Positions 35,192-47,735 of a stretch of 64,000 bases of DNA are shown here, one piece after another (position 1 is the first letter of the stretch; each line of letters starts with the position of its first letter). The position numbers and the translations under genes are program-made. A model generated the notes under the pieces. That model was not told the DNA's origin, ran no database searches, and worked only from the letters and a program-made list of their open reading frames with translations. The stretch is from Cyclobacterium marinum DSM 745. Its GTDB lineage: Bacteria > Bacteroidota > Bacteroidia > Cytophagales > Cyclobacteriaceae. Where the stretch lies: positions 2,738,501 through 2,802,500 of the forward strand of contig NC_015914.1 of the NCBI RefSeq assembly GCF_000222485.1. Reading direction: 5' to 3'.

Positions 35192-36001
35192 TTAAGGTAA
35201 TTTTTCAGTAAATACGAAATAATTTTCCGGCAAATCCATGGCTGTCGGGCAGTCTTTGAATAATCCAAAAACAGCAGAACCGGAACCGGACATAGCCGCA
35301 TACCACGCACCTGCTTCATATAGTTTTTCTTTGACAGTGGCAATTTCCGGGTGGCTGTTGAAAATTCCCTTCTCAAAGTCGTTGATTAGCTGAGATTTCC
35401 AAGTTGATTGATCCGAAAGAATGGTTCTCAAATTCTTGCCACTAAGCTTGGGTTGTATGCCTCCATAGGCTTCTTTTGTGCCGATATGGATTCCCGGGTG
35501 AATCATGCATAGCCAATTCCCGGATAGATCGAGGTGCAAGGGGGCTAATTTTTCACCTCTTCCTTCTGCCATCTGTGGATTGTTTTGGATAAAAAATGGA
35601 CAATCACTACCCAATTGTGAGGCGTAGTTTTCCAATTGTTTTGTAGTTAGCCCTAATGAAAATAGTTGGTTTAAAAGACTTAAGGTAAAGGCTGCATCTG
35701 CAGAGCCTCCTCCCAGGCCTGCACCGATAGGAATACTTTTATGTAAATGGATCGCTACGGTGGGTAATTCAGGAAAATCTTCGGCTAATAGTTGGTAAGC
35801 TTTTACGATCAAGTTGTTGTCTGAATCACCTGGAATAGAGATGCCACTATGACTGAAAGAGAAGGATTTGGAAGGGATTATTTCCAAAGCTTCTTTTAAA
35901 GGAATGGGGTACATGCAGGTTTCAATATCATGAAATCCATCGTTTCTTTTCCTGAGAACATGTAGGCCAAGGTTAATTTTGGCATTGGGAAAAATGATCA
36001 T
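35192..36001 (-). CDS. ispE: 4-diphosphocytidyl-2-C-methyl-D-erythritol kinase
   Basis: The 269-residue GHMP kinase phosphorylates the 2-hydroxyl of CDP-ME in the non-mevalonate isoprenoid pathway. The start (MIIFPNAKINLGLHVLRKRN), DGFHDIETCMYPI, the ATP loop PIGAGLGGGSADAAF and the end-region GSGSAVFGLF are all present. It stands alone between a convergent transporter and the divergent ilv operon. Confidence 0.95.
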   Translation of the reverse strand: MIIFPNAKINLGLHVLRKRNDGFHDIETCMYPIPLKEALEIIPSKSFSFSHSGISIPGDSDNNLIVKAYQLLAEDFPELPTVAIHLHKSIPIGAGLGGGSADAAFTLSLLNQLFSLGLTTKQLENYASQLGSDCPFFIQNNPQMAEGRGEKLAPLHLDLSGNWLCMIHPGIHIGTKEAYGGIQPKLSGKNLRTILSDQSTWKSQLINDFEKGIFNSHPEIATVKEKLYEAGAWYAAMSGSGSAVFGLFKDCPTAMDLPENYFVFTEKLP

Positions 36002-36385
36002 ATTTGTATAGCTTTAGGTTCTAAAATTAAAACAAAGCTGTGGATTTTCTATACAGCATTTTAATTCATTTTTTTAGATATTGGCTTACTTCTGTTTAAA
36101 GTTGATAAGGATCACTTGAAAGTCGGTTTTTTTGAGGAAAATTTAACAAAAGTTTGCATCAGAATAAAATTTTGAATTTTTTTACCTTAATTAATTTTTT
36201 TAAAATAAAATTTTTGATAATCTACTATTTAAGGCTTTAATTTTTTATTTAATTTCATTTACATTATTTTCTTATTTTTGAGAAATTAAAAAAAGAATTA
36301 AAATATTGTAAGTGTGGATTAAGGGTTTTAATATTGCATTATAATAATATAAAATAAAGTCAGAAATAATACGCTCAAAAGAGAT
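36002..36385. other. AT-rich promoter region of the ilv-leu operon
   Basis: About 380 bases without a gene separate ispE and the leader peptide. They are extremely AT-rich, with T and A runs. TATTTTTG at 36273-36280 fits the Bacteroidota -7 consensus TAnnTTTG, but a -33 TTG is not clear, so the start of transcription is only a guess. The leader would then be roughly 250 bases long. Confidence 0.35.
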
Positions 36386-36433
36386 ATGTTAGTAGTTGTC
36401 AGCCTTGTCGTCCTAATTGTCATTATCATTTAG
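36386..36433 (+). CDS. ilv operon leader peptide MLVVVSLVVLIVIII
   Basis: ATG 36386 opens a 15-codon frame ending in TAG at 36431. After Met the residues are L, V, V, V, S, L, V, V, L, I, V, I, I, I: thirteen of fourteen are valine, leucine or isoleucine. A purine-rich stretch (AAAAGAGAT) precedes the ATG. It stands 110 bases before ilvD, upstream of an antiterminator and an intrinsic terminator. Such leader peptides act as ribosome-based sensors for charged tRNA: stalling at scarce Val/Leu/Ile codons should favour the antiterminator. The peptide has no other expected job. Confidence 0.85.
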   Translation: MLVVVSLVVLIVIII

Positions 36434-36438
36434 TAAGT

Positions 36439-36490
36439 GATGAAGCGCTGATCTATTGCCAATAGAAAAAATCAATCAAAGTGCTTCATT
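36439..36490 (+). promoter_or_regulatory. Antiterminator of the ilv attenuator
   Basis: GATGAAGCGCT (36439-36449) can pair over 11 positions, with two G-U pairs, with AGTGCTTCATT (36480-36490). That second strand is also the left arm of the terminator, so the two folds exclude each other. A weaker helix in the leader (ATCATT at 36425-36430 with AGTGAT at 36436-36441) could hide the antiterminator while the ribosome finishes the peptide. Confidence 0.7.
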
Positions 36491-36510
36491 CGAGTGAAGC
36501 ACTTTTTTTT
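36478..36510 (+). terminator. Intrinsic terminator of the ilv attenuator
   Basis: AAAGTGCTTCA (36478-36488), loop TTCGAG, and TGAAGCACTTT (36495-36505), ending in a run of eight T (36503-36510), form an 11-bp hairpin 32 bases before ilvD. It is not between two transcripts but inside a leader, as an attenuator requires. Confidence 0.85.
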
Positions 36511-36542
36511 ATAAGCCAGTTGTTAAAAATAATTCAGTTATA

Positions 36543-38225
36543 ATGAGCAATTCAAAAAAGAATAGTTGGGAGGTAAGCGATAATCAAGAGAATCCGGCGT
36601 CAATGGCCATGTTGTATGCAACAGGGCTGACGGATGAGCAGATGAAGCAACCTTTTGTGGGGGTAGCTAGTTGCGGGTATGAAAGTAATCCTTGTAACAT
36701 GCACCTTAATGACTTTGCAAGAGCCATAAAGGCATCTACTAGAAAGTCAAAACTGACTGGATTGGTCTTCAATACAATAGGTATTAGTGATGGGATTTCA
36801 ATGGGGACTTCAGGAATGCGATATAGTCTTCCTTCCCGAGAGATCATCGCTGATTCCGTAGAGTCATTTATTCTAGGTCATTCGTTTGACGGGATAATTA
36901 CCGTAGCTGGTTGTGATAAAAACATGCCGGGTGCAGTCATGGGTATGCTAAGGGTCAATAGGCCTTCCATCATGGTGTATGGAGGCACCATTAGGTCTGG
37001 TAAATATAAAGGAGAAAAGCTGAATATTGTTTCGGCTTTTGAAGCCTATGGAAAGAAAATCAAAAATGAAATTTCTGATGAGGATTACACGGGCGTAATC
37101 AAAAATGCATGTCCCGGAGCAGGTGCTTGTGGTGGGATGTATACCGCCAATACCATGTCTTCTGCCATAGAAGCTATGGGGCTTTCACTTCCCTACAGTG
37201 CATCCAACCCTGCCAATTCTCAGGAAAAAGCAGCTGAATGTGAGGCCGCTGGGGAGTTTATAGCCAACTTATTGGCAATGGATTTGAAGCCGAAAGATAT
37301 TGTCACCAAGAAAAGTTTAGAGAATGCTGTAAGGGTGGTTGTGGCACTTGCAGGAAGTACCAATGCGGTATTGCACTTGTTGGCCATTGCCCGAACTGCT
37401 GAAATTGACTTTGGTTTGGAAGATTTCAAGAAGATTAATGCCACCACTCCTGTATTAGGTGATTTCAAACCTAGTGGTAAATACATGATGGAAGACTTGC
37501 ATGATCAAGGAGGATTGCCGGCATTTATGCGGTACCTTCTAGACAATGGACTCCTACATGGTGATTGCATGACGGTTACCGGCAAAACTATTGCTGAAAA
37601 TTTGGCTAACGTTGCGCCAATTAAAGTTGCTAAAGGAAGTGTAATCAACCCTATTGATTCTCCTGTAAAAGAAACAGGACACCTTTGTATATTGACAGGA
37701 AACTTAGCACCTGAAGGTTCAGTGGCCAAGATATCAGGAAAAGAAGGTGTCTCTTTTACCGGACCTGCAAAGGTGTATAACTCAGAACAAGAGGCCAATG
37801 ATGCCATGAAAAACATGGAAGTTCAAAAAGGTGATGTGGTCGTCATCAGGTTTGTAGGTCCAAAGGGTGGACCCGGAATGCCTGAGATGCTTAAACCTAC
37901 CTCAATAATTATTGGAGCAGGATTGGGAGCTGATGTAGCGCTCATTACAGACGGAAGATTTTCAGGAGGCACCCATGGCTTTGTCGTAGGTCATGTTACG
38001 CCGGAAGCATATACAGGTGGTCCAATAGGACTTTTACAAAATGGCGATATGGTTACCATCAATGGAGAAACACTTGAAATCTCTTGTGATGTATCTGAAG
38101 AAACTTTTGCAGAGCGAAAGAAAACTTGGGTAAATAAAGACTTGAGCCATTTAAATGGAACGTTAAAAAAATATTCTCAGTTAGTTTCTACGGCATCTGA
38201 AGGATGCGTTACGGATAAAGATTAA
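36543..38225 (+). CDS. ilvD: Dihydroxy-acid dehydratase
   Basis: The 560-residue iron-sulfur enzyme removes water from 2,3-dihydroxy-3-methylvalerate and -isovalerate. Conserved blocks are [79 protein letters not shown] and the C-terminal [20 protein letters not shown]. Cysteines in [13 protein letters not shown] and GACGG fit the cluster ligands. It is first in the operon, downstream of the attenuator; the next gene starts five bases after its stop. Confidence 0.97.
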
Positions 38226-38230
38226 CGACT

Positions 38231-39925
38231 ATGAATGATTCACAGATAAGAGGGGCAGAAATTGTAATCAAATCCCTGGTAGCAGAAAATGCCAAATTTA
38301 TTTTTGGCTACCCGGGAGGGGCTATCATGCCGGTGTATGATGCACTCTATGATTATATGGATCAAATCCAGCATATCCTCACCCGACACGAACAAGGGGC
38401 AATTCATGCTGCCCAAGGATATGCCAGAGTTTCCGGAAAAGTAGGGGTTTGTATGGCCACCTCCGGCCCGGGAGCAACCAATTTAATAACAGGCATGGCT
38501 GATGCCTTAATTGACAGTACACCTCTGGTCTGTATTACAGGACAGGTATTGTCACCGCTTCTGGGAACAGATGCTTTTCAAGAGACCGATGTGGTAGGGA
38601 TTTCTATGCCTGCCACTAAATGGAATATTCAAGTAAGAAGGGTGGAGGATATCGCACCAGCTATTGCTAAAGGTTTTCATATTGCCAGATCCGGAAGACC
38701 TGGGCCTGTATTGATAGACATTACAAAGGATGCTCAGGTAGCGCTAGGGGACTATAACTATGTGCCTTGTCTAAATATTCGCTCTTACCGACCTTATCCA
38801 AAGGTGGAAGACAGTGTGATTGATGCGGCAGCTAAGCTAATCAATAATGCAAAAAGGCCTTATCTTTTATATGGACAGGGTGTAATATTGGGTAAAGCTG
38901 AAAGTCAGTTAAAGGCATTTTTAGATAAGACAGGAATTCCTGCAGCTTGTACCTTATTGGGAACAGGTGCCTTGTCAGAGGAACATCCAAATTATGTAGG
39001 GAAGTTGGGTATGCATGGCAATTATGCGCCGAATATGCTTACCAACAAGTGCGATGTTTTGATCAGTGTGGGGATGCGGTTTGATGACCGAGTAACGGGA
39101 GATGTAAAGCGTTATGCCAAACAGGCCAAGGTGATTCATCTTGAATTGGATCCTGCGGAAATTAACAAGATTGTAAAAGCCGAAGTACCTATTTTAGGTG
39201 ATTGTAAGGTCAGTTTGGAAAAGCTTGTTGAGAAAGTAGACAAGAAAGAACATCCGGAATGGTTCAAGCAATTCAGAGAGCTTGAAGCAGAGGAAAAAAG
39301 AGTGGTTGTGGGCAATGATTTGTCACCGACCAAGAATGGCCTGACCATGGGTGAAGTGATTCGACATATCAATGAGTTTAAAGCAGACGATGCGATTCTG
39401 GTTACTGACGTAGGTCAGCATCAAATGGTCGCTTGGAGGTATTTTGAATACAAAAACTCCAGAACACAGGTTACCTCCGGGGGCTTGGGTACCATGGGCT
39501 TTTCTCTTCCTGCCGCCTTAGGAGCTCAGCTCCATGATTACAGCAAAGAAGTAATCTGTGTAGTAGGAGATGGCGGAATTCAGATGACCATTCAAGAGCT
39601 AGGGGCCATTATGCAAACCAAGGCTCCAGTGAAAGTTGTTTTGCTAAACAATAATTTCTTGGGCATGGTAAGACAGTGGCAGCAGTTGTTCTTTGACAAG
39701 CGCTACTCTTTTACGGAACTTGATAACCCTGACTTTATAAAAATTGCAGAGGCTTATAATTTTAAGGTTCAAAAAGTAGATGAAAGAGCTGAATTACGTC
39801 AGGCTGTAGCTGAGATGTTTGTACATGATGGACCTTATTTCCTTGAGGTGAAAGTAGAAAAAGAGGACAATGTTTTTCCAATGATTGCCACCGGCAGTTC
39901 TGTAGAAGAAGTTAGACTTAAATAA
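38231..39925 (+). CDS. ilvB: Acetolactate synthase large (catalytic) subunit
   Basis: The 564-residue thiamine-diphosphate enzyme condenses two pyruvates, or pyruvate with 2-oxobutyrate. The N-terminal catalytic glutamate is in ILTRHEQGAIHAAQGYARVS; the PYR/FAD region shows ATSGPGATNLITGMADALID. The ThDP motif is VVGDGGIQMTIQELGAIMQT through the NNNFLGMVRQWQ block. A small regulatory-subunit gene follows at once. Feedback by valine would act through that partner. Confidence 0.97.
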   Translation: MNDSQIRGAEIVIKSLVAENAKFIFGYPGGAIMPVYDALYDYMDQIQHILTRHEQGAIHAAQGYARVSGKVGVCMATSGPGATNLITGMADALIDSTPLVCITGQVLSPLLGTDAFQETDVVGISMPATKWNIQVRRVEDIAPAIAKGFHIARSGRPGPVLIDITKDAQVALGDYNYVPCLNIRSYRPYPKVEDSVIDAAAKLINNAKRPYLLYGQGVILGKAESQLKAFLDKTGIPAACTLLGTGALSEEHPNYVGKLGMHGNYAPNMLTNKCDVLISVGMRFDDRVTGDVKRYAKQAKVIHLELDPAEINKIVKAEVPILGDCKVSLEKLVEKVDKKEHPEWFKQFRELEAEEKRVVVGNDLSPTKNGLTMGEVIRHINEFKADDAILVTDVGQHQMVAWRYFEYKNSRTQVTSGGLGTMGFSLPAALGAQLHDYSKEVICVVGDGGIQMTIQELGAIMQTKAPVKVVLLNNNFLGMVRQWQQLFFDKRYSFTELDNPDFIKIAEAYNFKVQKVDERAELRQAVAEMFVHDGPYFLEVKVEKEDNVFPMIATGSSVEEVRLK

Positions 39926-39930
39926 CTCAG

Positions 39931-40431
39931 ATGAAAAGAAGATACACAATTTCTGTATTTACAGAAAATTTCATAGGAATACTCAGTAGAATTACCCTAA
40001 TATTTACCCGAAGGGGAATCAATATTGATGGTTTTACTGCCTCAGAAAGTAGAGAAGAGGGGATTTACAGGATCACCATTGAGGTGAATACAACTGAAGA
40101 GCAAGTGATTCAGTTGTCAAGGCAAATCGAAAAAATCATTGACGTAATCAAAGCTTTTTATTACTTGGATGATGAAATGGTTTTTCAAGAAATTGCTTTG
40201 TACAAAATTCCAATTGACAGTATAGATCCAGGTTTGGAGAAAGTAATTCGCCAGTACAACGCGAAGATTATTTCAGCCGAGAAGGATTTTGTGGTCGTAG
40301 AGATGACAGGCCATAAAGAAGACACCCAGGATTTGCTGGAAGTTTTAAAAGAATTCAATGTTCTGGAATTTGTTAGGTCCGGCAGGGTAGCTGTGGCCAA
40401 GCCAATGGTGAGTATTGATAAATATTTATAA
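39931..40431 (+). CDS. ilvN: Acetolactate synthase small (regulatory) subunit
   Basis: The 166-residue protein has an N-terminal ACT domain (YTISVFTENFIGILSRITLI, then FTRRGINIDGFTASESREEG) that binds branched-chain amino acids, and a C-terminal ALS_ss domain (about 85-160, LYKIPIDSIDPGLEKVIRQY). It gives IlvB full activity and valine feedback. It begins five bases after ilvB. Confidence 0.95.
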   Translation: MKRRYTISVFTENFIGILSRITLIFTRRGINIDGFTASESREEGIYRITIEVNTTEEQVIQLSRQIEKIIDVIKAFYYLDDEMVFQEIALYKIPIDSIDPGLEKVIRQYNAKIISAEKDFVVVEMTGHKEDTQDLLEVLKEFNVLEFVRSGRVAVAKPMVSIDKYL

Positions 40432-40463: not shown

Positions 40464-41507
40464 ATGAAACTGAAGTTCGGTACAGTTGAAGAAAACGTAG
40501 TGACAAGAGAAGAATTTCCTCTTGAAAAAGCCAAGGAAGTCCTAAAAGACGAAGTTATCGCCGTATTAGGATATGGGGTTCAAGGCCCAGGACAGGCGCT
40601 AAACCTTAAAGACAATGGTTTCAATGTCATTGTTGGACAACGAAAAGATTCCAAAACTTGGGACAAAGCTGTCGCTGACGGATGGGTTCCCGGTGAAACA
40701 CTTTTTGAGTTGGAAGAAGCCTGTGAAAAAGGAACAATTCTTCAGTTCTTGTTGTCTGATGCCGGACAAATTGCCTTATGGCCAACAGTTAAGAAACATT
40801 TGACTCCAGGAAAAGCACTTTACTTTTCTCATGGCTTTGGTGTTACTTACAAAGAGCAAACAGGTATCGTTCCACCAGCGGATGTGGACGTGATTTTGGT
40901 TGCCCCTAAAGGTTCAGGAACTTCATTGAGGAGAATGTTTGTTGAAGGTAGAGGATTGAACTCATCTTTCGCTATTTTCCAAGATGCGACAGGAAGAGCA
41001 AAAGAGAGAGTAGTTGCTTTAGGTATTGGTGTAGGTTCAGGATATTTATTCGAAACTGATTTTTACAAAGAAGTAACGTCTGACCTTACAGGAGAAAGAG
41101 GTTCTTTGATGGGTGCTATTCAGGGTATTTTCGCAGCTCAGTACGAAGTATTAAGAGCCAATGGTCATACTCCTTCAGAAGCATTCAACGAAACTGTTGA
41201 AGAATTGACACAAAGTTTGATGCCTTTAGTAGCTGAAAACGGAATGGATTGGATGTATGCCAACTGTTCAACTACAGCTCAAAGAGGTGCATTGGATTGG
41301 TGGAAACCTTTCAGAGATGCAACCAAACCTGTATTCGAAGACTTATACAATAGTGTAAAGACAGGAAAAGAAGCAGCCAAGTCTATTGAAGCCAATAGTA
41401 AGCCTGACTATAGGGTGAAATTGGAAGAAGAATTGAAAGAATTGAGAGATTCTGAAATGTGGCAAGCGGGAGCAACTGTCCGTAAATTAAGACCAGAAAA
41501 CAATTAA
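40464..41507 (+). CDS. ilvC: Ketol-acid reductoisomerase
   Basis: The 347-residue class I enzyme isomerises and reduces acetolactate or acetohydroxybutyrate with NAD(P)H. The nucleotide-binding loop is GYGVQGPGQALNLKDNGF, then VIVGQRKDSKTWDKAV. The metal and substrate residues lie in the C-terminal knotted domain (TDLTGERGSLMGAIQGIFAA and EALNEAVEE-like SEAFNETVEELTQSLMPLVA). It is between ilvN and leuA in one operon. Confidence 0.96.
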   Translation: MKLKFGTVEENVVTREEFPLEKAKEVLKDEVIAVLGYGVQGPGQALNLKDNGFNVIVGQRKDSKTWDKAVADGWVPGETLFELEEACEKGTILQFLLSDAGQIALWPTVKKHLTPGKALYFSHGFGVTYKEQTGIVPPADVDVILVAPKGSGTSLRRMFVEGRGLNSSFAIFQDATGRAKERVVALGIGVGSGYLFETDFYKEVTSDLTGERGSLMGAIQGIFAAQYEVLRANGHTPSEAFNETVEELTQSLMPLVAENGMDWMYANCSTTAQRGALDWWKPFRDATKPVFEDLYNSVKTGKEAAKSIEANSKPDYRVKLEEELKELRDSEMWQAGATVRKLRPENN

Positions 41508-41516
41508 AAAATAACG

Positions 41517-43016
41517 ATGTCAGAAAAGCTTTGGATATTTGATACCACCCTTAGGGATGGAGAACAGGTACCGGGTTGCCAACTCGATACCAGGGAAAAA
41601 ATTGTAGTAGCCAAGGCTTTGGAAGCATTGGGAGTTGATATCCTTGAGGCTGGATTTCCTGTATCCAGCCCCGGGGATTTCAATTCTGTTGTGGAAATAT
41701 CAAAGGCAGTAGAAGACCCTATCATCTGTGCCCTCTCCAGAGCGGTGGAGAAAGACATAGAAGTGGCAGCTGAGGCATTAAAGTATGCCAAAAAAAGCAG
41801 GATCCACACCGGTATAGGTGTCTCCGGTTACCACATTGAGCATAAGTTTAGAAGTACTCCTGATGCCGTGCTTGAAAAAGCTGTCAAGGCAGTGAAGTTT
41901 GCAAGGAACCTTGTAGGAGAAGTGGAGTTTTATGCTGAGGATGCCGGAAGGGCAGATCCTGAATTCCTTGCGAAAATTGTTGAAGCAGTGATCAAAGCAG
42001 GAGCTACAGTCATCAATATTCCGGACACTACAGGCTATTGTCTTCCAGAGCAGTACGGAAATATCATTCGTTTTCTCAAAGAAAATGTCTCAAATATAGA
42101 CAAGGCCATTTTGTCTACCCACTGTCACAATGACCTTGGTTTGGCCACAGCCAATAGCCTTTCGGGCGTACTAAATGGGGCCAGACAAGTAGAAGTGACC
42201 ATGAATGGCATAGGTGAACGTGCCGGCAACACCTCATTGGAAGAAGTGGTGATGGCCATAAAAAGTCACAAAGAGGTACCGGTATATACCGGAATCAATA
42301 CCAAGAAAATTTACGAAACGAGTAGGATTATTTCCAAACTCATGAACATGCCTATACAACCAAATAAGGCTATTGTAGGTAGAAATGCATTTGCACACTC
42401 ATCCGGAATACACCAAGACGGTGTCTTAAAAAACAGGGAGAATTATGAAATTATAGATCCCAAAGATGTAGGTGTAGAAGAATCATCCATTGTCCTTACA
42501 GCAAGAAGCGGAAGGGCAGCGTTAAAGCATCACCTGAAATTATTGGGGTTTGAATTTGACAAAGAAAAATTGGATGAAATTTACGCTGATTTCTTGACCC
42601 TTGCAGACTCAAAAAGAGATATAGGAAGAAAAGACCTATTGTCTTTATTAGGTGAACATTTGGAAAACGCTCCCTTCATTGAAATGAAAGAGGTTTTCTA
42701 CGAAGGCAGTGAAGGAGCAGGAGGTCATGCAAAAGTTGTTCTTGCCATTGGTGAAGAAGAAAAGAGAAGTGAATCCGACGGAAATGGCCCTGTAGATGCA
42801 GTCATTAAATCCATCAAGAAATTAATTCCTCAGCAGGTTATATTGGATGAGTTCTTGATCCAAGCAATCACAAAGGGGAGTGACGATGTATGTAAAGTAC
42901 ATATGAGATTGATGCATAATGAACGTCCCTATCATGGGTTCGGATCCGAAACAGACATAGTATTGGCCTCGGCCAAGGCATTTATTGATGCTTTAAATAA
43001 ATTACCTGTCAAATAA
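41517..43016 (+). CDS. leuA: 2-isopropylmalate synthase
   Basis: The 499-residue enzyme condenses acetyl-CoA with 2-oxoisovalerate, the first step of leucine synthesis. The HMGL-like barrel starts with [20 protein letters not shown], has the metal-binding [16 protein letters not shown] block and the [19 protein letters not shown] block. The C-terminal regulatory LeuA_dimer domain (about 365-498) contains the leucine-feedback fold. A second LeuA-like gene lies three genes downstream. Confidence 0.95.
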
Positions 43017-43038: not shown

Positions 43039-44460
43039 ATGGAGAAGAAATCATTATTTGATAAGATTTGGGATGCGCATGTGATCCAGTCTATCCCAAG
43101 TGGTCCGGATGTGTTTTTCATAGATAAGCATTTTATCCACGAAGTAACCAGCCCGGTTGCATTCCTTAATCTTGAAAAAAGAGGAAACAAGGTTATGTTT
43201 CCTGAAAGGACCATTGCTACTCCCGATCATAATGTACCCACTGTTGATCAGGACAAAACGATCAAGGATCAACTTTCCCGTATGCAAGTTGAAAAATTAA
43301 GGGAAAATTGTAAGAAGCACGGAATAGATCTTCACGATCTAGGTACGGACCATCATGGTATAGTCCATGTAATTGGCCCCGAGCTTGGCATTACCCAGCC
43401 GGGAATGACCATAGTTTGTGGAGATAGTCATACTTCTACACATGGAGCTTTTGGTACCATTGCTTTTGGTATAGGTACTTCAGAAGTTGAAATGGTTTTT
43501 GCTACTCAATGCATCATGCAAGCAAAACCTAAAAAAATGCGTATAACCATTGATGGTGAATTAGGCAAAGGGGTTACCTCTAAGGATATTATATTGTACA
43601 TCATTGCTCAGATTTCCGCCAGTGGTGGTACGGGGTATTTCATTGAATATGCAGGAAGTGCCATCAGGTCTTTGAGCATGGAAGCAAGAATGACCATCTG
43701 TAATATGAGCATAGAGATGGGGGCAAGAGGTGGCTTGATAGCTCCTGACGAAACTACTTTTGAGTACCTCAAAGGGAAACAATATTCCCCTAAAGGAGAA
43801 GAATGGGACAAGGCTGTTGCACATTGGAAAACACTTCAAACTGATGAGGGTGCTACATTTGATGTAGAATACCAATATGATGCTGCAGACATTGAGCCGA
43901 TGATTACCTATGGTACCAATCCGGGTATGGGAGTGAAGGTGAGAGGAAATATCCCAACAACAGACGGGATGAATGAGAGTGAAAATAAATCTTATATCAA
44001 ATCCTTGGATTATATGGGCTTCCAGCCTGGAGAGGCTATGGAAGGCAAAAAAATTGACTATGTATTCGTGGGTAGTTGTACCAATGGACGTATAGAAGAT
44101 TTGAGGTCTGTCGCTCAATTTGTAAAAGGCAAAAAGAAAGCAGACAATATCACTGCTTGGATTGTTCCAGGTTCTAGAGAAGTAGAGAAAAAAGCAATCG
44201 AAGAAGGAATTGTTCAGACCCTTGAAGAGGCCGGTTTTAAATTAAGACAACCGGGTTGTTCTGCTTGTTTGGCAATGAATGATGATAAAATCCCTTCCGG
44301 AAAATATGCTGTTTCAACTTCAAACAGAAACTTTGAAGGACGTCAAGGACCAGGAAGCCGAACGCTACTTGCTTCTCCACTTACTGTAGCGGCTGTAGCC
44401 ATTACAGGCGTGATTACAGACCCAAGGGATATAATAGAAGAATTAGTACAAGAAAAATAA
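43039..44460 (+). CDS. leuC: 3-isopropylmalate dehydratase large subunit
   Basis: The 473-residue aconitase-family protein has the [4Fe-4S] ligands in [12 protein letters not shown] and in the [11 protein letters not shown] pair. The substrate region ([20 protein letters not shown]) is intact. It works with LeuD to isomerise 2- to 3-isopropylmalate; the same complex can serve citramalate. Confidence 0.96.
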
Positions 44461-44464
44461 TATC

Positions 44465-45055
44465 ATGGCATACGATAAATTTGATGTTTTGACCAGTAGG
44501 GTGGTTCCGCTTTCCTCAGAAAATGTAGATACTGACCAAATTATTCCGGCTAGGTTTTTAAAAGCTACAGAACGAAAGGGATTTGGAGACAATCTCTTTA
44601 GAGACTGGCGATATGATAAAGAAGGAAATCCTAAACCGGATTTCGTTTTAAATGACCCGACATATAGTGGTAAAATACTTTTAGCAGGTAAAAATTTCGG
44701 ATCAGGTTCAAGTCGTGAGCATGCGGTATGGGCCATTTATGATTATGGATTTAGATGTGTGGTTTCAAGTTTCTTTGCTGATATTTTCAAGAATAATTGC
44801 TTGAATATTGGCGTGCTTCCAGTTACCGTTTCTCCGAAATTTGCAGAAGAATTATTTGCAGCTGTGGAAGCGAATCCTGAAGCAGAAGTAGAGGTAGATA
44901 TCAATAAACAAACCATTACTTTACTTTCTACCGGAAATTCAGAATCTTTTGATATCAATTCTTACAAAAAGCAAAACATGAAAAATGGGTTTGATGATAT
45001 CGATTATTTGCTGAACCTTAAAGAAGAAATAGTGGCATTCGAAGCCAAAAGGTAA
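44465..45055 (+). CDS. leuD: 3-isopropylmalate dehydratase small subunit
   Basis: The 196-residue swivel-domain subunit has the start FDVLTSRVVPLSSENVDTDQ followed by IIPARFL, and the catalytic GKNFGSGSSREHAVWAIYDY block. It directly follows leuC by four bases, matching the obligate heterodimer. Confidence 0.96.
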   Translation: MAYDKFDVLTSRVVPLSSENVDTDQIIPARFLKATERKGFGDNLFRDWRYDKEGNPKPDFVLNDPTYSGKILLAGKNFGSGSSREHAVWAIYDYGFRCVVSSFFADIFKNNCLNIGVLPVTVSPKFAEELFAAVEANPEAEVEVDINKQTITLLSTGNSESFDINSYKKQNMKNGFDDIDYLLNLKEEIVAFEAKR

Positions 45056-45106
45056 ACTTTGCTCTGAGTTTCGAAGTTTCAATTGTGTCAGGTTAATGGT
45101 AAGGGA

Positions 45107-46696
45107 ATGCGTAGAGAAAAGAATATAGAAATCATGGACACCACCCTGAGGGATGGAGAGCAAACCTCTGGGGTGTCATTTCTTCCTTCAGAAAAACTCC
45201 AGATTGCGAAGCTTTTACTGGAAGAGCTTAGAGTGGACCGAATTGAGGTTGCTTCTGCCAGGGTTTCAGAAGGAGAGATGGAAGGAGTCAAAAGGATTAC
45301 AAATTGGGCAGAGGAGAGAGGCTTTTTAGGGAGCATTGAGGTTTTAGGGTTTGTAGATACTCCAAAATCTGTAGATTGGATGGTAGAAGCCGGTGCCAAA
45401 GTAATGAATTTGCTTACAAAAGGCTCCCTAAATCATCTAACCCATCAACTTAAAAAAACACCTGAAGTTCATTTTGCAGAGATAGAAAAGTGCATTTCCT
45501 ATGCAAGAACTCATGGCATTGAAGTGAATGTTTATCTTGAGGATTGGAGCAATGGTATGCGAAATTCTAGGGATTACGCCCTCTCAATGATCGAATTTCT
45601 CTCCCAGCAGCCGGTCAAAAGAATTATGCTTCCGGATACCTTGGGGCTGCTCTGTCCTGATGAAGTAAAGGAGTTTCTGGAACTTATTTGTGATAAGTTT
45701 CCGGAAGTGCATTTTGATTTCCATGCGCACAATGATTATGACCTGTCTGTTGCCAATGTCCTTCATGCGGTAAATACCGGCGCCAAAGGCATACATACCA
45801 CAGTAAATGGTTTGGGTGAGAGGGCCGGTAATGCTCCTCTTGAGTCCATCGTAGCAGTAATAAAGGATTTTACACCTTGTCATCTCAATGTAAACGAGAG
45901 TAAAATCTACAGAATAAGTAAGCTGGTAGAGCAATTTTCAGGCTTGAGAATTCCTGCGAATAAACCGGTGGTTGGGGAAAATGTATTTACCCAAACAGCT
46001 GGTGTTCATGCTGATGGGGACAATAAAAAGAACCTGTATTTTAGCGATTTGCTTCCTGAGCGATTTGGGAGAACGCGAAAATATGCCTTGGGAAAAACCT
46101 CAGGCAAAGCCAATATTTCCAAAAATCTGGAAGAGCTGGGTATTTCCCTTGAGCCCGAAGAATTGACAAGGGTGACACAAAAAATCATTGAGCTAGGAGA
46201 CAAAAAGGAGCGGGTTACAACTGAAGATCTTCCCTATATAATCTCAGATGTGCTTCAAAATAATTCCATTAATAAAGACATTGTTATTGATGGATACCAT
46301 ATGGTGCATTCCAAAGGCCTAAAGCCTTCTGTTCAGTTGCGAGTCAAAATATTCGACAACTATTATGAACAGAATGCCTCCGGTGATGGGCAGTATGATT
46401 CATTTATGAAAGCCCTAAAGAAAATCTACAAGGGTCTGGACATGCAGCTACCAAAGCTGACGGATTTTCATATAAGTATCCCCCCGGGGGGGAAGACCGA
46501 TGCTTTTGTAGAATGTGTGATTACTTGGGATTTGAATGGAAGGATCTTCAAGACCAAAGGTTTGGATAGTGACCAAACCATTGCGGCCATGATGGCCACC
46601 GAAAAAATGCTTAATATCATAGAACAAATCAAAAATAGTAACAAAACTGAAAAAAAGAATCCTTATGGAAATGAATATAGCCCTATTACCTGGTGA
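45107..46696 (+). CDS. LeuA-like alpha-isopropylmalate/citramalate synthase
   Basis: ATG 45107 is favoured over the TTG at 45083 because the family start ([20 protein letters not shown]) follows it directly. The HMGL-like barrel has FDFHAHNDYDLSVANVLHAV and GLGERAGNAPLESIV, and a C-terminal LeuA_dimer regulatory domain (about 390-510) is present. It is a second, diverged paralogue of leuA inside the same operon. Members in this place are often called (R)-citramalate synthase, which would make isoleucine from pyruvate using LeuC, LeuD and LeuB. That role is inferred from position; the substrate pocket was not checked. Confidence 0.8.
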   Translation: MRREKNIEIMDTTLRDGEQTSGVSFLPSEKLQIAKLLLEELRVDRIEVASARVSEGEMEGVKRITNWAEERGFLGSIEVLGFVDTPKSVDWMVEAGAKVMNLLTKGSLNHLTHQLKKTPEVHFAEIEKCISYARTHGIEVNVYLEDWSNGMRNSRDYALSMIEFLSQQPVKRIMLPDTLGLLCPDEVKEFLELICDKFPEVHFDFHAHNDYDLSVANVLHAVNTGAKGIHTTVNGLGERAGNAPLESIVAVIKDFTPCHLNVNESKIYRISKLVEQFSGLRIPANKPVVGENVFTQTAGVHADGDNKKNLYFSDLLPERFGRTRKYALGKTSGKANISKNLEELGISLEPEELTRVTQKIIELGDKKERVTTEDLPYIISDVLQNNSINKDIVIDGYHMVHSKGLKPSVQLRVKIFDNYYEQNASGDGQYDSFMKALKKIYKGLDMQLPKLTDFHISIPPGGKTDAFVECVITWDLNGRIFKTKGLDSDQTIAAMMATEKMLNIIEQIKNSNKTEKKNPYGNEYSPITW

Positions 46697-47735
46697 TGGT
46701 ATTGGCCCTGAAGTAATCGCTCAGGCAGTAAAAGTTGTAGATGCTGTCGCTAAGAAATTTGGACATAAAATCACTTACAATGAAGCCATCACAGGTGCTG
46801 CCGCTATTGATGCAGTAGGTAACCCTTACCCAGACTCCACACACGAAGCCTGTGTTGCAGCAGATGCAGTACTTTTTGGTGCTATTGGTCATCCTAAGTT
46901 TGACAACGACCCAAGTGCAAAAGTAAGGCCTGAGCAAGGGTTATTGGAAATGAGAAAAAAATTAGGGCTATTTTCAAATGTTCGTCCTACCTTTACTTTT
47001 CCTTCCTTGCTCCACAAGTCCCCTTTGAAAAAAGAAAGAATTGAAGGTACAGATTTGGTTTTTTTAAGGGAACTTACAGGAGGCATCTATTTTGGAGAAC
47101 CAAGAGGTAGAAATGAACAAGGAACAAAGGCTTTTGATTCTTGTGTTTATTCCGTAGAGGAAATTGAAAGACTGGCTAGAATGGGCTTTGAATTTGCAAG
47201 GAAAAGAAGGAAACTATTGACCTGCGTGGATAAGGCTAACGTTTTGGCCACTTCTCGTCTTTGGAGAGAAACTGTACAACGTCTGGCCCCTGAATACCCT
47301 GATGTCAAAGTTGAATATGAATTTGTGGATGCTGTAGCCATGAGATTGGTTCAATGGCCTAAAGCCTATGATGTCTTGATCACAGAAAACCTGTTTGGAG
47401 ATATTCTTACAGATGAAGCTTCTGTAATTAGTGGTTCAATGGGATTGATGCCGTCTGCTTCCATTGGGCTTAAAACCAAGCTTTTTGAGCCTATCCACGG
47501 TTCATACCCACAAGCAGCAGGTAAAGACATTGCTAATCCATTGGCAGCGGTTTTGTCAGCTTCTATGATGTTTGAATATGCTTTTGATTTAATGGATGAA
47601 GCTAAAGCTATTTCAGACGTGGTAAATCTGTCTTTGGAAAAAGGCGTGGTAACCGAAGATCTTTCAGAAGGGGAGAAATCCTATAAGACTTCTGAAGTAG
47701 GAGATTGGTTGGCTGAACAAATTGAAAAAATGTAA
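46665..47735 (+). CDS. leuB: 3-isopropylmalate dehydrogenase
   Basis: The 356-residue NAD-dependent beta-decarboxylating dehydrogenase has the start MNIALLPGDGIGPEVIAQAV, the LGLFSNVRPTF block, the ELTGGIYFGEPRG block and the metal-binding ENLFGDILTDEASVISGSMG region. It overlaps the preceding gene by about 30 bases, indicating translational coupling; ATG 46671 is an alternative start. It ends the operon, followed by a terminator. Confidence 0.96.
   Translation: MEMNIALLPGDGIGPEVIAQAVKVVDAVAKKFGHKITYNEAITGAAAIDAVGNPYPDSTHEACVAADAVLFGAIGHPKFDNDPSAKVRPEQGLLEMRKKLGLFSNVRPTFTFPSLLHKSPLKKERIEGTDLVFLRELTGGIYFGEPRGRNEQGTKAFDSCVYSVEEIERLARMGFEFARKRRKLLTCVDKANVLATSRLWRETVQRLAPEYPDVKVEYEFVDAVAMRLVQWPKAYDVLITENLFGDILTDEASVISGSMGLMPSASIGLKTKLFEPIHGSYPQAAGKDIANPLAAVLSASMMFEYAFDLMDEAKAISDVVNLSLEKGVVTEDLSEGEKSYKTSEVGDWLAEQIEKM

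Follow-up and report, generated by a model that had tools for sequence, protein, structure and literature searches.

Does the DNA ahead of ilvD in Cyclobacterium marinum DSM 745 hold a leader through which the supply of branched-chain amino acids controls transcription of their own biosynthetic genes? Ribosome-mediated attenuation is a classic mechanism and a textbook case in E. coli. A sequence-only reading of this locus had proposed that the enterobacterial logic operates in this lineage too, and the proposal is supported by the reading frame, the helices, the terminator, the codon-to-strand ruler and the modelled switch described below. It is very likely that a ribosome-mediated transcription attenuator of the ilv/leu type controls the nine-gene operon. 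Positions are those of the window, the whole stretch of 64,000 nucleotides that was analysed.

Architecture of the leader and its operon

Between 36300 and 36550 the + strand carries, in order, promoter-like boxes, a short open reading frame (ORF), strand 2, a terminator hairpin with its U-run, and ilvD (Table 1). The leader ORF, MLVVVSLVVLIVIII, begins with an ATG at 36386 and ends with a TAG at 36431-36433, giving 15 codons. After the methionine 13 of its 14 residues are V, L or I (6 V, 3 L and 4 I). The sole exception is a Ser codon, AGC, which sits in strand 1 and is AGC in 12/12 species of the genus.

The terminator arms (36478-36488 and 36495-36505) form 11 bp; scored by a second method the stem has 12 bp, with one extra U-G pair, and a 4-nt loop. 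The U-run occupies 36503-36510, three of its eight U falling inside the stem, and a spacer of 32 bases (36511-36542) separates it from ilvD, which starts at 36543. The core of strand 2 is GATGAAGCGCT (36439-36449). A further element, strand 1, which is absent from the sequence-only reading, lies within the ORF (36390-36414) and pairs with strand 2 (36439-36459); the helices 1:2, 2:3 and 3:4 are therefore all able to form. Folding of the leader, which that reading had proposed as a check, was run on 36370-36515 and gives a stable minimum-energy structure of -35.8 kcal/mol (z -3.47; 1/200 shuffles equally good). At full length this fold consists of 1:2 and 3:4, with GUCAGCCU (36398-36405) and its neighbours paired to strand 2.

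Downstream the nine genes run in the order ilvD-ilvB-ilvN-ilvC-leuA-leuC-leuD-cimA/leuA-like-leuB, with gaps of 4-32 nt and one overlap of 32 nt. Their products, valine, leucine and isoleucine, are exactly the amino acids of the leader. Should the second LeuA/CimA-like ORF encode a citramalate synthase, isoleucine could be made from pyruvate through this operon, in keeping with a leader whose codons cover all three. The upstream neighbour ispE is divergent from ilvD, so the terminator on the + strand does not belong to ispE. The genome is a single contig of 6,221,273 bases, and among the matches listed the closest named ilvD is that of Aquiflexum (76%).

The layout thus agrees with what had been claimed from the letters. 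The coordinates given for the 15-residue V/L/I leader ORF are exact, and codon reading bears out that 13 of the 14 residues after Met are end products of the operon. The strand at 36439-36449 that competes for the left arm of the terminator is present, as is the 11-bp terminator (36478-36505) with its U8, 32 bases ahead of ilvD. The single nine-gene ilv-leu operon also stands, its nine genes being identified mostly by profile models over their cut-offs.

Table 1. Features of the leader region and the operon, in window coordinates
Feature	Position	Strand	Support
Promoter-like boxes TTG and TAATATTG	36306..36336	+	Box pair in 65/65 relatives
Leader ORF MLVVVSLVVLIVIII	36386..36433	+	Intact in 65/65 relatives
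Strand 1 (core GUCAGCCU, 36398-36405)	36390..36414	+	Minimum-energy fold, helix 1:2 pairing, own-partner energies
Strand 2, antiterminator left arm (core 36439-36449)	36439..36459	+	Helix 2:3 pairing 96.8%
Strand 3, terminator left arm and antiterminator right arm	36478..36489	+	Terminator search, helices 3:4 and 2:3
Strand 4 and U-run (right arm 36495-36505, U 36503-36510)	36494..36510	+	Helix 3:4 pairing 98.8%
ilvD, dihydroxy-acid dehydratase	36543..38225	+	TIGR00110 over cut-off
ilvB, acetolactate synthase large subunit	38231..39925	+	TIGR00118 over cut-off
ilvN, acetolactate synthase small subunit	39931..40431	+	TIGR00119 over cut-off
ilvC, ketol-acid reductoisomerase	40464..41507	+	TIGR00465 over cut-off
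leuA, 2-isopropylmalate synthase	41517..43016	+	TIGR00973 over cut-off
leuC	43039..44460	+	TIGR00170 over cut-off
leuD	44465..45055	+	TIGR00171 over cut-off
Second LeuA/CimA-like synthase (start codon uncertain)	45083..46696	+	NF042433 (CimA, Leptospira), 693 bits, below cut-off 950
leuB, 32-nt overlap with preceding ORF	46665..47735	+	TIGR00169 over cut-off

The genome was also searched for other copies of the RNA with a model of it (R1), 150 of 4450 first-look candidates being scored. A strong match occurs only here (116.1 bits; 39.5 on the other strand). Two further places (37.0 and 31.8 bits), which have a terminator-like end, were dropped because no V/L/I-rich short ORF lies in the stretch read.

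Conservation in the close family

The genus sample comprises all 12 genomes, and the family sample 55 further genomes with ilvD at 73-85% identity from 245 drawn in the family; one family genome in rank order (G127) was left out of the set of upstream regions. The resulting 67 regions were reduced to 65 by removal of two identical ones and aligned (alignment A1). In 12/12 genus genomes an ATG ORF with at least 9 I/L/V among 10 consecutive residues lies at most 400 nt 5' of ilvD, against 0.00 in dinucleotide shuffles.

The leader ORF is intact in 65/65 relatives, all of which have the hairpins. It encodes 15-23 amino acids and its ATG is invariant; the other two frames of the same stretch contain stops in 51/65 and 39/65. 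None of these 65 keeps the hairpins with a broken V/L/I frame, an outcome that the sequence-only reading had named as fatal to its proposal. Across the final five control codons, T occupies the middle position in 64-65 of the 65 sequences and the two outer positions vary, which suggests selection on I/L/V codons and not on the RNA sequence. Outside the genus the peptides are quite divergent (for example MFELVTPLSFIILICNK), with a mean I/L/V share of 0.59 and a minimum of 0.25 in L155.

A terminator follows the leader in 12/12 genomes of the genus and in 53/54 of the rest of the close family. Mutually exclusive helices are present throughout the alignment: 3:4 is paired in 98.8% of cells (slid registers 33-57%), 2:3 in 96.8% (27-50%) and 1:2, the least uniform, in 73.5% in one register (24-44%). 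The covariation score of each helix exceeds all 500 shuffles, with kinship uncorrected. Further pair types are not above shuffles in any of the three helices (1:2, 2:3 and 3:4 reached by 442, 500 and 500 of 500). As to pairs in which both partners changed, the observed number is equalled in 66 shuffles of 500 for 1:2, 500 for 2:3 and 10 for 3:4. At A1 columns 106/157/170 one genus set has G-C-G and another A-U-A, strands 2, 3 and 4 having changed jointly. On a tree of 33 ilvD genes this switch needs two changes, with L113 in between, so the compensation is close to one event. The sequence-only reading had looked to an alignment for conserved V/L/I-rich leaders and for compensatory changes in the alternative helices. 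The leaders are kept (ORF 65/65); compensatory changes exist, but they are few as independent events, the clearest being essentially one.

Pairing between strands of the same leader was also compared with pairing to strands swapped between leaders (64/65 sequences; L135, without an anchor, was dropped). The binding energy with the own and the swapped partner is -14.35 vs -12.70 for 1:2, -16.36 vs -14.53 for 2:3 and -17.05 vs -15.58 for 3:4, and with kinship ignored 0/2000 permutations match the observed mean for each of them. The control pairs 1:3 and 1:4 show no own-partner effect (445 and 1813 of 2000 permutations).

Upstream of the ORF lie the boxes TTG (36306-36308) and TAATATTG (36329-36336), which we take to be of the Bacteroidota -33/-7 promoter type. 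The tighter box pattern, written after a first look at the promoter data (TTG - 16 to 24 nt - TAnnTTTG with at most one mismatch, at most 140 nt 5' of the leader ATG), is found in 65/65 relatives, against an expectation of 7.4 from dinucleotide shuffles (maximum 13 in 50 rounds). The exact TAnnTTTG box occurs in only 16/65, with 1.1 expected. A transcription start 3' of 36433 had been named in advance as speaking against attenuation; the predicted promoter is instead 5' of the ORF in 65/65, and to judge from these boxes transcription would start upstream of the leader ORF. A promoter of the sigma-70 type was set aside, with 6 matches vs 6.6 in shuffles. Tetramers resembling a Shine-Dalgarno sequence lie within 20 nt 5' of the leader ATG in only 2/65. 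The block around the first box (36306-36336) is conserved past the TTG, being TTGTAAG-like in 63/65, and could be a part of the promoter or a regulator's site.

Codon choice in the leaders differs from that of the ilvD genes in the same 33 genomes, the counts not being independent by kinship. GTC makes up 89/111 leader Val codons vs 180/1233 in ilvD and CTC 25/84 Leu codons vs 108/1438; among Ile codons ATC is lowered (35/156 vs 555/1211). This bias may be due in part to base pairing of the strands. A missing tRNA-Val(GAC) was considered as the cause of the GTC preference and rejected: it is absent from a first list of 36 tRNAs and was found by pattern search, and the genome has both tRNA-Val(GAC) and tRNA-Leu(GAG). 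Since only 150 of 400 candidates were scored and tRNA-Ile(GAT) is missing, the list is incomplete and nothing further was drawn from it.

Codon-to-strand spacing and the modelled switch

In 62/65 relatives the last I/L/V codon begins 13-16 nt ahead of the strand 2 core, the others being at -10, -19 and -19. The position of the stop codon relative to strand 2 varies from -11 to -1 across the 65. At about a distance of 13-16 nt a stalled ribosome would only just leave strand 2 exposed. Automatic finding of strand 2 in the close family places 32/64 within -17..-12, with 4.5 expected and the interval chosen after the first data; the count is low because the best duplex often starts some bases further 5' and the ORF picker is sometimes misled, and the alignment-based count is preferred.

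The effect of a ribosome was modelled by masking the RNA as far as 14 nt from the first base of its A-site codon. In the 65 sequences the modelled probability of the antiterminator, P(2:3), has a mean of 0.98 over the I/L/V codons and is 0.94 at the last of them (at least 0.5 in 64/65); at the next three codons it falls to 0.64, 0.11 and 0.00 in turn. At the stop the mean is 0.14, with 48/65 at or below 0.1. Across the 65 sequences, then, strand 2 is freed in this folding model by a ribosome at a control codon and blocked by one that has reached the end of the reading frame.

For the window itself, with the ribosome at the stop, P(2:3) is 0.57 without pairing behind the ribosome and 0.05 with such pairing allowed. 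Given these values and a genus stop at -11, shut-off in the genus of the window probably also requires 1:2 to re-form after release. In a ribosome-free nascent chain 2:3 is the favoured helix at equilibrium (mean 0.71 over the 65; window 0.71). When RNA behind the ribosome may pair, stalling raises P(2:3) above this ribosome-free value in only 53/65, and late stalls in L115 (codons 13-15) give 0.00. The model does not favour termination in the untranslated state; there 1:2 would have to win by folding first, being formed before strand 3 is made.

The proposed course of events is as follows. Under a shortage of charged Val, Leu or Ile tRNA, the ribosome would stall on an I/L/V codon, covering strand 1 and freeing strand 2; helix 2:3 would then form, the terminator would be blocked and the nine genes would be transcribed. 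With an ample supply of the amino acids it would instead reach the stop, where its leading edge would meet strand 2 and/or 1:2 would re-form after release. With strand 2 so occupied, 3:4 would form and transcription would end ahead of ilvD. We infer leader translation, ribosome-polymerase coupling and a response to amino acids.

A different reading sees in the hairpin no more than a leaky terminator that acts constitutively, or an element of RNA stability; the ORF would then be a chance V/L/I-rich reading of a U-rich strand. U-rich DNA does easily yield V/L/I codons, and when only 6 of 10 residues are demanded the shuffles already give 2.6 of 12 in the genus. At 8 of 10 or more, however, the same search finds 12/12 genus genomes vs 0.1 from shuffles, and chance would leave unaccounted for the frame kept in every relative, the fixed second codon base among varying others, the conserved strand 2 that competes for strand 3, and the codon-to-strand ruler; this reading is very improbable. 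No more credit is due to a sensor of another nature (a trans-acting factor, a small-molecule riboswitch or a T-box) to which the ORF would be secondary. A leader of such size could accommodate one, and the TTGTAAG-like block at the first box is strikingly conserved. Against this, Rfam at its curated cut-off reports only a tRNA across the window and no family at the leader, T-boxes and described riboswitches included (the best weak match in 36001-36560 has 23.3 bits vs a cut-off of 80), and the three-helix switch is the only clear structure.

Within the attenuator reading, the three amino acids might carry unequal weight, the switch answering mainly to isoleucine (and leucine). The final control residue is Ile in 61/65 relatives, as is the third last in 53/65, and many relatives have as their only Val codon the GUC of strand 1. 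The genus, on the other hand, has four to six Val codons, some of them beyond strand 1 (codon 12 is GTC in 12/12), and a stall on any I/L/V codon has the same modelled outcome, so a restricted response of this kind seems rather unlikely to us. We prefer an attenuator in which one leader would sense all three amino acids, as the codons suggest: the leader of the window holds Val, Leu and Ile codons. Many leaders outside the genus, however, keep a single Val codon.

Precedents and breadth across Bacteroidota

The attenuator of ilvXGMEDA in E. coli K-12 (ilvL; NC_000913.3) belongs to a different species and an operon of different content. It shares with the window a V/I/L-rich leader peptide ahead of an ilv operon and, by the same procedure, a terminator with a U-run and a competing strand 2. 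It differs in that its peptide has 32 residues and its strand 2 lies inside the coding tail, whereas the window has 15 residues and a strand 2 after the stop. Counted from where strand 2 begins, E. coli has the final Ile of its run at -7, I18 at -13 and the stop codon at +32; its ruler is therefore less strict.

The 2004 survey of Vitreschak et al. reportedly counts Bacteroidetes/Chlorobi among the groups in which amino-acid operons have candidate attenuators. For Flavobacterium psychrophilum, of the same phylum, strong clues from transcriptome and structure evidence were described in 2021 for the same mechanism, leader-peptide attenuation upstream of amino-acid biosynthesis operons; the passage in question names no operon or peptide (PMC9723704). 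The 2020 map of Bacteroides thetaiotaomicron, also of this phylum, notes short ORFs reminiscent of leader peptides in 5' UTRs; the idea is the same, and the main text presents no ilv case, 'ilv' occurring in it 0 times (PMC7366714). In the full texts searched, which include few subscription papers, no paper turned up that brings together leader-peptide attenuation, ilv and Bacteroidetes. The locus is very probably a real attenuator of a known kind, in a phylum for whose amino-acid operons leader-peptide attenuation has already been suggested in print. It would bring an entire branched-chain operon, in a large environmental phylum, under a stalled-ribosome switch, with a predicted anatomy given base by base.

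Breadth was assessed on named loci, the best 80 of 594 confirmed, mostly Bacteroidota. An ATG ORF with at least 7 I/L/V of 10 consecutive residues, at most 400 nt 5' of ilvD, is found in 25/80 (2.3 expected), some of the ORFs picked looking unlike leaders (e.g. L020, L055, L058, L076), and 55/80 have no such leader at this cut. At 8 of 10 the count is 16/80, with 0.3 expected from shuffles. Record titles of loci with leaders include Flavobacteriaceae, Chitinophagaceae, Saprospiraceae and an Ignavibacteriae MAG. Among more distant family members, taken nearly in rank order from 150 with a match, a V/L/I-rich leader occurs in 9/26 (0.3 expected).

When stretches of up to 450 nt are considered, a leader is present at 26/80 named loci, and a terminator follows 20 of these 26 (0.2 expected) vs 7/54 leaderless loci. 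Of 27 distant leaders that have a terminator, 21 end their run with a codon at -17 to -12 relative to the best partner of the terminator's left arm, with 2.2 expected, the interval chosen after the first data and L043/L059 and L172/L182 being near-duplicates; taken singly, only 4/27 of the strand-2 partners pass p 0.01 against shuffles. L053, L062 and L064 (tails such as PALNGGGALI) resemble E. coli, with strand 2 within the coding tail and the stop at +17 to +20.

Bacteroidota ribosomes are described, in a passage of PMC9976891, as failing to recognise Shine-Dalgarno sequences. We give about even chances to the wider view that attenuation is an old and widespread habit of Bacteroidota, extending from ilv throughout the phylum to the his, trp and thr candidates of this genus, exercised by ribosomes without Shine-Dalgarno pairing and obeying a ruler of about 12-17 nt from last control codon to antiterminator regardless of peptide or stop. 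If this is true, ribosome and RNA polymerase would be closely coupled throughout the phylum. The switch works only with a ribosome close behind the polymerase, and the conserved leaders of many Bacteroidota are therefore evidence, at the sequence level, that transcription and translation are coupled in organisms with ribosomes that ignore Shine-Dalgarno sequences. The ruler also offers a simple criterion for finding leaders whose peptides cannot be aligned.

Leader candidates for other amino acids were seen in the genus. A short ORF with clustered His codons (e.g. ...MHHAGHHCS, L218) lies ahead of hisG in 12/12 genomes (L218-L229), about 270 to 85 nt before the hisG match; a clear U-tailed hairpin was not seen in the alignment of these 12 leaders. 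In the two measured, a TAAATTTG box ends 7 nt 5' of the ATG, so the His leader mRNA may be nearly leaderless. Ahead of thrA, a fused aspartokinase-homoserine dehydrogenase gene, a short ORF with a Thr-rich end (e.g. SGNTTTTTGITG, L278) is present in 11/12 genomes (L278-L289; none in L288 by the same search), about 200 to 84 nt before the gene. A short ORF with WWW (e.g. MKNQNQNWWWLSYFF, L265) precedes a trpE-like gene in 12/12 genomes (L254-L265), about 770 to 700 nt before the match to the chorismate-binding domain. It is followed in the alignment by a hairpin, GGCTTGCTGG...CCCGGCAAGCC, with a T-run, and in the trp leader candidates measured a TATATTTG box ends 9 nt 5' of the inner ATG.
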